Shown: piece by piece, positions 2,355 through 40,232 of the stretch
How positions within the stretch are numbered: the first letter of the stretch is position 1
Layout: each line of letters opens with the position of its first letter
Origin: Hyphococcus sp.
GTDB lineage: Bacteria > Pseudomonadota > Alphaproteobacteria > Caulobacterales > Parvularculaceae
DNA length: 64,000 bases
NCBI GenBank assembly: GCA_028289605.1
Contig: JANQON010000009.1
Location: 62,001-126,000 of the forward strand
Direction of reading: 5' to 3'
Position numbers and translations under genes: made by a program
The notes under the pieces: model-generated
Seen by the model: only the letters and a program-made list of their open reading frames with translations
The model's database searches: none
What the model was told of the DNA's origin: nothing

Positions 2355-2460
2355 CCCGCTCATTCCCGCGCAAGCGGGAATCCAGATGTTGGAAAAGGTC
2401 GCCGCCGAACGCGGGTTTCCTTCCATTTAATGGATCCCCGCTTGCGCGGGGATGAGCGGA
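2355..2460. repeat. Paired palindromic repeat, family A copy 1
   Basis: Two hairpins in opposite orientation. The left arm is CCGCTCATTCCCGCGCAAG followed by CGGGAATCCA; the right arm is TGGATCCCCG followed by CTTGCGCGGGGATGAGCGG. About 45 bp lie between them. The arms match copies near 15.8, 23.2, 34.7 and 40.1 kb. It lies between the greA terminator and the converging lipoprotein gene, a usual site for REP/BIME-like elements. Confidence 0.85.
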
Positions 2461-15818: not shown

Positions 15819-15921
15819 CCGCTCATTCCCGCGCAAGCGGGAATCCAGAGGTCTAAATGGGACGCGCTGGAGGACTGGCGCCCTTCGGTTGCTAGATCCC
15901 CGCTTGCGCGGGGATGAGCGG
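15819..15921. repeat. Paired palindromic repeat, family A copy 2
   Basis: The arms are nearly identical to those near 2.4 kb: CCGCTCATTCCCGCGCAAG at the left and CTTGCGCGGGGATGAGCGG at the right, with about 45 bp between. It lies between the converging MarR and gmk genes, where it may also act as a two-way transcription stop. Confidence 0.85.
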
Positions 15922-23109: not shown

Positions 23110-23190
23110 GGTCATCTCCTTTTTTGGGGGTGGATTAACTATGGCGGCGTCTGAGGGCAAGGCGGGACCATGTTTCGTCCCTCATTTCTC

Positions 23191-23319
23191 CCGCTCATCC
23201 CGGCGCAGGCGCGAAGGCGCGCTGATTTTCAACTGACCGCTTCGCGGTCGGACCGGGACCTCGCGAAACTTGCTCCGAAATACGCCGCGAGAGATCCCGG
23301 CCTGCGCCGGGATGAGCGG
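23191..23319. repeat. Palindromic repeat, family A copy 5 (degenerate left arm)
   Basis: The left arm CCGCTCATCCCGGCGCAGG and right arm CCTGCGCCGGGATGAGCGG are close inverted copies, with related core bases (CCGGCGCAGG in place of CCCGCNNANG). About 90 bp lie between, longer than in other copies. It sits in the 410-bp gap between the divergent fabD and rpsF genes. Confidence 0.75.
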
Positions 23320-23352
23320 GGGAGAAATGAAACAAAGCCGCACGCCTTGCCC

Positions 23353-33753: not shown

Positions 33754-35136
33754 TTATTCCGTTCTCTTCAACGTCGCTATAAAAAACCCGTCGGCGCGGA
33801 TCTCGTCCGGGGTCAGGCGCAAGCCGCCGTCCGGCGTCAGGCAAGCTTCGAGCGCCGCCCGTCCCTCGTCCGTCAACATTCCGGATTCGGCGATCGCGTC
33901 GAGCGTCGGCGTCCGCGCGTATTCCGGATGATCGCCCAGAAACGCGCCAAGACGATCCTCGTTCTCCTCCATCAGGAACGAACAGGTGACCCAAACCAGG
34001 CGCCCGCCCGGTTTAACCAAGCGCGCGGCCTCTTGCAGCACGCGGTCCTGCTCACGCATACGGGTCGCCAGTTGTTTTTCGGTAAGGCGCCACTTGGTGT
34101 CAGGATGGCGCCGCCACGTGCCGGCGCCGGAACAGGGCGCATCGACGAACACCACATCCATCTTGCCCGCCAGACCGTCCAGCGTTTCAGTATCCGTCAC
34201 CGGATTGAGAATCTGCAGGTTACGCACGCCGGCGCGCTTGGCCCGGGCGTAGAGCGGCTTGAGCCTCCGCGCATCGCGGTCATAGGCGTAAAGCTGCCCG
34301 GTGTTCTCCATCAGGGCGGCGAGCGCCAGCGTTTTCCCGCCCCCGCCGGCGCAATAGTCGAGCGCCTGGGCGCCCTTGATGTCGCCGGCCGCGGCTGCGG
34401 CGATCTGCGAGCCCAAGTCCTGCACCTCGACCCAACCCTTGTTGAAGGCCGGAATGACGGTGACCGCCGGCGCTTTTTCCGAGGGATTGGGCGCGGCGAT
34501 GCGCGCCGCCGTCGTCAGTATGGGAACGGCTTTTCCTTTTACGGATTTGAGCGCCGCCAGCGTCTTGTCCGGCGTCGATTTGAGGGTGTTCATGCGAAGG
34601 TCGACGTCGGCGCGTTCCGCGAAGGCGGACATGACGCGCGCCGCGTTGTCACCGAAGACGCGCTCAATGTGCGGCGTCAGCCATTCGGGAAAGTCGCCTG
34701 AGATATGGGGCGCGTTTTTGTCTACCCGCTCATCCCCGCAAAAGCGGGGATCCATTTCCACGTCCGTCTGGATTCCCGCTTTCGCGGGAATGAGCGGAGG
34801 AGAGTTGAGCGCTTGGATTTCGTCCGCCGTAAGTTTCCCCGGACCGTGCGGCTCTTCCGCAGCAGCTTCCGCGAGTTCTTCTACCGAAACGCACCACAGA
34901 AACCGCATCGCCCCCAACACCAGCGTCCGCGGACGATCATCTTTCATGGCGGCCGCGAGAGAATTCCGCCGGCGCAACACATCAAGGCACAAGCCCGAAA
35001 TCCAGGCGCGGTCTTTTGCGCCGGCGTAGCGATTGCTGCGCGACCAATCGGCGATCGCCGTCTTCAGCGGTACGCGCCGCGCGTCAAAGTCAGACAGAAT
35101 TTCTATTGCAGCGGAGAGCCGTCCGGAAAGGCGCAT
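33754..35136 (-). CDS. rsmB: RsmB/NOP2-type rRNA m5C methyltransferase with inserted repeat peptide
   Basis: 460 residues. An N-terminal NusB-like RNA-binding domain (residues ~1-105) is followed by the methyltransferase domain, with SAM site ALDYCAGGGGKTLALAAL and both cysteines of the m5C mechanism, in VDAPCSGAGTWRR and WVTCSFLMEEN. It methylates a cytosine in 16S rRNA in characterised relatives. Residues 114-137 (LIPAKAGIQ...MDPRFCGDER) are encoded exactly by a 72-bp family A repeat, falling in the linker between the domains. The gene lies between guaB and guaA, a conserved position. Symbol given by family; exact target base unproven. Confidence 0.88.
   Translation of the reverse strand: MRLSGRLSAAIEILSDFDARRVPLKTAIADWSRSNRYAGAKDRAWISGLCLDVLRRRNSLAAAMKDDRPRTLVLGAMRFLWCVSVEELAEAAAEEPHGPGKLTADEIQALNSPPLIPAKAGIQTDVEMDPRFCGDERVDKNAPHISGDFPEWLTPHIERVFGDNAARVMSAFAERADVDLRMNTLKSTPDKTLAALKSVKGKAVPILTTAARIAAPNPSEKAPAVTVIPAFNKGWVEVQDLGSQIAAAAAGDIKGAQALDYCAGGGGKTLALAALMENTGQLYAYDRDARRLKPLYARAKRAGVRNLQILNPVTDTETLDGLAGKMDVVFVDAPCSGAGTWRRHPDTKWRLTEKQLATRMREQDRVLQEAARLVKPGGRLVWVTCSFLMEENEDRLGAFLGDHPEYARTPTLDAIAESGMLTDEGRAALEACLTPDGGLRLTPDEIRADGFFIATLKRTE
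34726..34797. repeat. Family A palindromic repeat inserted in frame inside rsmB
   Basis: Left arm CCGCTCATCCCCGCAAAAG followed by CGGGGATCCA; right arm TGGATTCCCG followed by CTTTCGCGGGAATGAGCGG. The element is 72 bp, a multiple of three, and coincides with rsmB codons 114-137. It is the shortest copy, with only about 12 bp between the arms. The reading frame is kept and contains no stop. Confidence 0.85.
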
Positions 35137-36621
<1,485 letters not shown>

Positions 36622-40088: not shown

Positions 40089-40133
40089 ATAGCGTCGTCC
40101 CGTGCGCGCTGCAGCGCAGAGCGCCAAACAGTT

Positions 40134-40232
40134 CGCTCATCCCCGCGTACGCGGGGATCCACTTATGCGACGGTAGGGCGATATGCGCAGCTACGCTTGC
40201 AAATGGACTCCCGCTTTCGCGGGAGTGAGCGG
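40134..40232. repeat. Paired palindromic repeat, family A copy 4
   Basis: CGCTCATCCCCGCGTACGCG at the left and CGCTTTCGCGGGAGTGAGCG-type bases at the right. It lies between the convergent BON-LysM gene and dksA and ends 9 nt from the dksA stop, so it may terminate both. Confidence 0.82.

Follow-up and report, generated by a model that had tools for sequence, protein, structure and literature searches.

The window, which is the whole 64,000-nucleotide stretch of DNA that was analysed (G000:C17:62001-126000), originates from a genome of 4.29 Mb in 19 contigs (G000, the host) belonging to the Marinicaulis group of the Parvularculaceae, with Marinicaulis and other Parvularculaceae providing the nearest named records. 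It carries an intact rsmB gene flanked by guaB and guaA (Table 1). Within the predicted protein, Pfam domains RsmF-B_ferredox (residues 149-214, 4.8e-7) and Methyltr_RsmB-F (residues 257-457, 1.5e-41) were detected. In a Foldseek search PH0851 ranked first, followed at ranks 2 and 3 by the E. coli Fmu structures 1SQF and 1SQG, with TM values of 0.71/0.76 against 1SQF. Residues C335 and C385 were invariant in an alignment of 40 sequences. The parts of RsmB are named here after what we take to be the domains of Fmu (N-terminal helical, ferredoxin-like and methyltransferase), and its target base is presumably C967 of the 16S rRNA (m5C967).

Table 1. Positions in the window of rsmB, the parts of its repeat and other copies of the same family
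Feature	Position	Strand	Description
rsmB, 16S rRNA m5C methyltransferase RsmB/Fmu	33754..35136	-	460 aa, intact ORF
Head-to-head REP dimer, 72 bp	34726..34797	-	rsmB codons 114-137; peptide PLIPAKAGIQTDVEMDPRFCGDER
Arm 2 as read in the gene	34726..34754	+	CCGCTC tag, 8-bp stem, 4-nt loop, CCA tail
Spacer, 14 bp	34755..34768		between the arms of the rsmB dimer
Arm 1, first in the coding strand	34769..34797	-	rsmB dimer
Dimer read as intergenic, 104 bp	2356..2459		same family, arms common with the rsmB copy
Dimer read as intergenic, 103 bp	15819..15921		same family, arms common with the rsmB copy
Composite copy read as intergenic, 131 bp	23190..23320 (also given as 23187-23323)		extra hairpins inside one arm
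Dimer read as intergenic, 100 bp	40133..40232		same family, arms common with the rsmB copy

As described in the initial annotation, a 72-bp repeat lies inside rsmB and fits its codons exactly, adding 24 residues with no stop. It is built of two 29-bp arms on either side of the spacer, with each arm reading in the order tag (CCGCTC), 8-bp stem, 4-nt loop and CCA tail. Both arms match known variants of the family (0/58 mismatches), the loop of arm 2 being AAAA instead of the usual GAAA, which gives RFC where RFR would be expected. Four of the six frames over the element are free of stops, i.e. two of three on each strand, and it is due to this and to the 72-bp length that the rsmB reading frame survived.

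The insert had been assigned to a linker between the RNA-binding and catalytic domains. Its position in an interdomain linker holds, but it precedes the ferredoxin-like domain and is not immediately ahead of the catalytic one. The AlphaFold model of RsmB (alignment of 40 sequences) has a mean pLDDT of 92.3, with values below 50 at residues 121-130 and 132-134, which are 13 of the 24 insert residues and where the low values are partly due to the scarcity of aligned residues, many of the 40 sequences having no insert. Judging from the low pLDDT, the insert may be exposed in the protein. It should also be noted that a 623-codon antisense ORF (window 34705-36576, + strand) begins shortly before the repeat and covers rsmB and guaB; it is most likely spurious, yet is an annotation hazard.

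The repeat family in the host genome and its congeners

The arms of the rsmB copy recur, as had been noted initially, in four other copies within the window, which match it in the arms and not in length. These four were read by eye as intergenic from the seven longest stop-to-stop ORFs near each of them. The longest ORF spanning any of the four was one of 211 aa over the composite copy, beside a ribosomal-protein-S6-like start. To the eye, this composite copy resembles the longer rsmB inserts or arms of two congeners (G010 and G026).

Throughout the host genome the family is present far beyond chance. A BLAST search with the 72 bp returned 80 rows, and a strict pattern (GCTCATYCCSGCNNNNGCSGGRAT) was found at 61+68 places and at none when read backwards. 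All 16 genomes searched, comprising the host and 15 congeners, contained the same pattern, and in none of them did it occur backwards. A looser pattern allowing up to three mismatches was found at 162+169 host places against 35+39 backwards. Among the host loci examined there were 40 distinct head-to-head dimers, this being the only arrangement counted, with length peaks at 72-73 bp (12/40), 85-86 bp (7) and 100-104 bp (7). The initial annotation had drawn attention to the insert being a multiple of three, which is correct but not special, as 72 bp is the most frequent dimer length in the host (9/40) and 16 of the 40 lengths are divisible by three.

The 80 host arms had a mean identity of 0.86, while the nine 14-bp host spacers had a mean identity of 0.327 against 0.316 when shuffled, so that the arms represent the conserved unit; the spacing of the dimers seems to be kept and the spacer sequence not. 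The spacer in rsmB resembles none of the eight other 14-bp spacers, with the best pair of any two being 0.57 identical. Unrelated spacers call into question whether the 72-bp dimer moves as one unit. The dating of copies by pristine arms was abandoned, since arms that are alike genome-wide alongside random spacers cannot indicate the age of a copy. A search of the host for the Y1 transposase family PF01797, the only transposase family searched, gave 0 matches, with the control matching in 5 of 14 genomes. The one match to a known RNA family, MIR1437, reached 26 bits where the gathering score is 168 and was discarded as a chance hairpin match.

To look for copies inside other genes, the encoded peptide was searched for in two frames across the host and 28 genus genomes, and longer frames were then analysed with Pfam. 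In the host, 63 clusters were compiled by hand from the places found by BLAST, the looser pattern and the peptide search, and stop-free frames of approximately 150 aa or more were followed, Pfam leaving out C14:325980 (156 aa) and one of two frames in L238, L247. Among the matches listed for the congeners, stop-free frames of approximately 250 aa or more and one shorter frame (G004) were followed, a scope within which weak or short copies may be missed. The peptide search recovered RsmB in seven of the eight genomes with a dimer in that gene (not G010) among the matches listed. Among the candidates followed from the matches listed in host and congeners, none apart from rsmB was a gene with a copy enclosed between conserved domains. 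The broader proposal that the family may invade coding regions in general is not supported. Of the other long frames followed, some matched nothing in Pfam, and the remainder carried their domains downstream of the repeat. The latter were rejected as 5' regions, with start codons picked by eye: in the host, ORFs for a short-chain dehydrogenase, GFA, GIY-YIG, UvrB_inter (probably mfd), an antiporter-like protein and DUF1287, and in the congeners, KARI/ilvC, Fe-ADH, MurB, DUF3429 and DUF1287. An aldehyde-dehydrogenase-like ORF (L064) was set aside by eye alone.

What comes closest to a further gene of this sort is the DUF1287 protein of M. flavus (G022; L231:1406-1478, equal to G022:C12:288205-288277). 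Here a 72-bp dimer separates MKKIIS from the hydrophobic core of what is likely a signal peptide. An ATG within the repeat, in ATGAGCGG or a near copy of it, may serve as the start codon of the DUF1287 gene. A dimer is also located upstream of a DUF1287 gene in the host (L245, G000:C19).

RsmB linkers across relatives

Matches to RsmB came from 59 of 60 genomes; within the family, 59 of 62 genomes had one at E 1e-60, and both counts include the host. Within the genus, linkers could be read in 27 of 28 genomes including the host (G005 gave no match and G018 was read from fragment L182). A dimer was present in eight of these (G000, G001, G010, G013, G015, G019, G022 and G026), always in one slot and, of two possible frames, always in the same, beginning 11 or 12 codons past the conserved HGPG.L motif. 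Its length was 72 bp in six species, 111 bp in G010 and 117 bp in G026, all multiples of three. Eleven linkers were short, five (G003, G004, G008, G012 and G027) were of a type containing 'SSPC', and two (G011 and G023) had probable remnants, their degenerate look being judged partly by eye. The linker of G020 fits no class; its 15/29 arm mismatches do not favour a remnant. The SSPC-type linkers of the five congeners were 42-44 codons long, and a similar piece was observed in the 55-codon linker of G011 (L026, L027, L030-L032, L034).

The suggestion that the segment arose by insertion from a family of intergenic repeats gains from the lengths of these linkers, as those with a dimer come to 18-30 codons once the dimer is subtracted (n=8) and the short ones to 19-30 codons (n=11, with G018 at 27). 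With 11 of the 27 linkers short and the copies resembling the intergenic ones, it is also not the case that all relatives carry a segment unlike the intergenic repeats.

An inverted-repeat scan of 100 RsmB genes gave a score of at least 14 in five (G000, G013, G015, G019 and G032), in all of them in the linker; these genes are kin and the five are not independent draws. The next scores were 13 (L186, codons 105-130) and 12 (L157, codons 257-278). Four of the eight dimers were flagged by the scan, and the other four, with decayed or interrupted arms, were recognised by sequence. The palindrome in G032 (L041), which belongs to another genus, is long, unrelated to the dimer and has a score of 24. 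A short hairpin noticed by eye in the linker of G031 (L040; CCTTCTCCCCGATGGGGAGAAGG) scored 10, which is not above background and is reached elsewhere by chance in other RsmB genes, and was not considered a signal.

History of the slot and interpretation

We favour reading the repeat in rsmB as an insertion that is tolerated in an interdomain linker. The account as a whole, that of a CGTC-1-like REP head-to-head dimer sitting in a flexible linker and probably both translated and tolerated, is held with high confidence. In this account, the dimer came to lie between the N-terminal helical domain and the ferredoxin-like and methyltransferase domains, and its translation most likely yields a largely disordered loop with the enzyme continuing to work. 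The kept frame and the largely disordered prediction agree with the tolerated linker peptide that had been put forward initially; its description as a route to new protein segments is speculation. The slot probably has a long history of occupation within the genus, during which its content changed in place, with old common copies decaying in frame (as G001 and G015 suggest, with G023 and G011 as probable remnants), arm 2 differing in length between the sister species G019 and G026, and the arms of the host looking fresh.

A tree was constructed from GuaA, GuaB and RsmB without its linker (39 tips, G018 left out), with node supports down to 16. On this tree the dimer is patchy, requiring five changes when gains and losses cost the same (four with the two remnants), while a single origin would need 10 losses for the dimer alone or eight with the remnants. 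The host differs from 13 congeners at 47-59% of four-fold sites, due to which there is no clean empty site, and junctions and target duplications are unreadable. G001 and G015, with 10 and 8 arm mismatches in 58 bp respectively, share five changes from one chosen family arm variant, and from their sequences would most simply represent one inherited copy. Across arm 1 plus the spacer, 48 of 50 bases agree between G019 and G026, yet the two differ in arm 2 by 45 bp, in frame, which indicates that the slot changes in place.

It is slightly short of evenly probable that several independent insertions reached the slot, with the linker of RsmB being either a hotspot or one of very few conserved places where such an insertion survives. 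The patchy tree, with its four to five changes against eight to ten losses, argues for this, as does the unrelated palindrome in the same linker of G032. M. flavus likewise has a dimer and its sisters G025 and G009 have none; the arms of this dimer carry 4 mismatches in 58 bp, as against differences of 39% and 45% from those sisters at four-fold sites. However, a copy cannot be dated by its pristine arms, support is low at several nodes of the tree, and the same start and frame in all eight copies would be easier to obtain from one origin.

Close to an even chance is also given to one ancestral insertion in the genus that was kept or lost by lineage, its arms being renewed either through recombination with further copies or through template switching at the hairpins. 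The common position, frame and usual length are consistent with this reading, along with the derived changes common to G001 and G015 and the degenerate-looking pieces in G023 and G011. The dimer and remnant tips also cluster on the tree, since none of 2000 label shuffles of the ten positive tips needed as few changes. Between G019/G026 and G010, paired synonymous swaps (CCG/GCC against CCC/GCG) preserve both the palindrome and the peptide. The eight to ten losses required speak against a single insertion, as does the lack of likeness between the rsmB spacer and the other host spacers, where only those of 14 bp were compared. We infer that old and new insertions, together with renewal through recombination, all contributed to the history. 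More tentatively, and rather unlikely as it stands, the RsmB linker in this bacterial family could be a standing slot, entered repeatedly near one codon by unrelated repeat families and with resident copies renewed in frame from other genomic copies, and with almost no such repeats in the remaining proteome.

A selected function of the palindrome in rsmB, as an mRNA hairpin tuning translation or a peptide modifying RNA binding, is improbable. Such a function would fit its persistence in several lineages and the difference between G019 and G026 at only 2/50 element bases against 39/220 four-fold sites; homogenisation, however, also predicts slow change, 19 of the 27 readable linkers in the genus have no dimer, the arms in G001 and G015 are decayed, and in G032 the slot is occupied by an unrelated palindrome. 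An assembly or annotation artefact can practically be dismissed, even though repeats are common at misassemblies and many of the genomes here are metagenome bins, given that the element occurs at nearly the same codons with differing sequences in eight separately assembled species, the host protein being 71-75% identical to the other seven.

As a probable tolerated insertion, the rsmB dimer is of interest because palindromes within functioning genes offer a test of how selfish DNA turns into protein. Here one slot can be traced through 27 genomes of a genus in fresh, decayed, collapsed, extended and empty states, which makes repeated insertion against inheritance with renewal testable with more genomes. 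The effect of the insert on RsmB is testable through the methylation of a single rRNA base.

Comparison with known palindromic elements

Di Nocera et al. (2013; PMC3733652) describe the CGTC REPs of alphaproteobacteria as having 8-9-bp stems, 4-5-nt loops and CCA tails, occurring as head-to-head dimers, which predominate in CGTC-1, and having no transposase. Some are intragenic, coding for 20-30 residues, and were argued to sit in flexible linkers or loops. The host family shares with CGTC-1, as portrayed there, the occurrence of head-to-head dimers, the alphaproteobacterial host and the 20-30 residues inside some ORFs. Its arms also have the AT-first 8-bp stem and 4-nt loop (ATTCCCGC-GAAA-GCGGGAAT), both rsmB arms end in ATCCA, and a dedicated transposase is absent from the host as far as PF01797 is concerned. 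It differs in the tag, which in CGTC-1 is an unpaired terminal CGTC, or TGTC or CCTC, and in the host family reads CCGCTC before the stem. It differs further in that the 14-bp spacers of the host 72-bp dimers are unconserved and one target gene was found here.

In the same paper, RPE-6 and RPE-4 are equated with CGTC-1 and CGTC-4. The Rickettsia palindromic elements (RPEs), to which the rsmB repeat had been likened initially, do provide a parallel for its behaviour (PMC3767692; PMC3733652). In PMC3767692, RPE-4, RPE-6 and RPE-7 are found in frame in conserved genes at solvent-exposed places, RPEs affect many genes (18 in its Table 1), and they occupy the same sites in orthologues, with different groups for one gene and the matter of hotspots left open. 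The rsmB copy is similarly in frame in a conserved gene, at a place for which low pLDDT suggests exposure, and at the same site in orthologues. Unlike the RPEs, it was found in one gene, in a host of the Marinicaulis group, and orthologues are often without it. It is by this host, which is not Rickettsia, and not by alignment to the RPE groups, that it is set apart from the RPE class proper.

The GTAG REPs and REPINs with RAYT are also short palindromic dimers of which some are intragenic (PMC3733652), and in this they resemble the family here. Unlike them, the host family has a CCGCTC tag and no GTAG, and the host is without a PF01797 Y1 transposase. No earlier report of REPs in rsmB was found in a literature search, the scope of which stopped short of the list of target ORFs in Additional file 3 of PMC3733652. 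The kind of element is already in print, as intragenic alphaproteobacterial REPs and as RPEs at one site in orthologues (PMC3733652; PMC3767692); what is new here is the lineage of the host, along with the CCGCTC tag and the signs of turnover in place.
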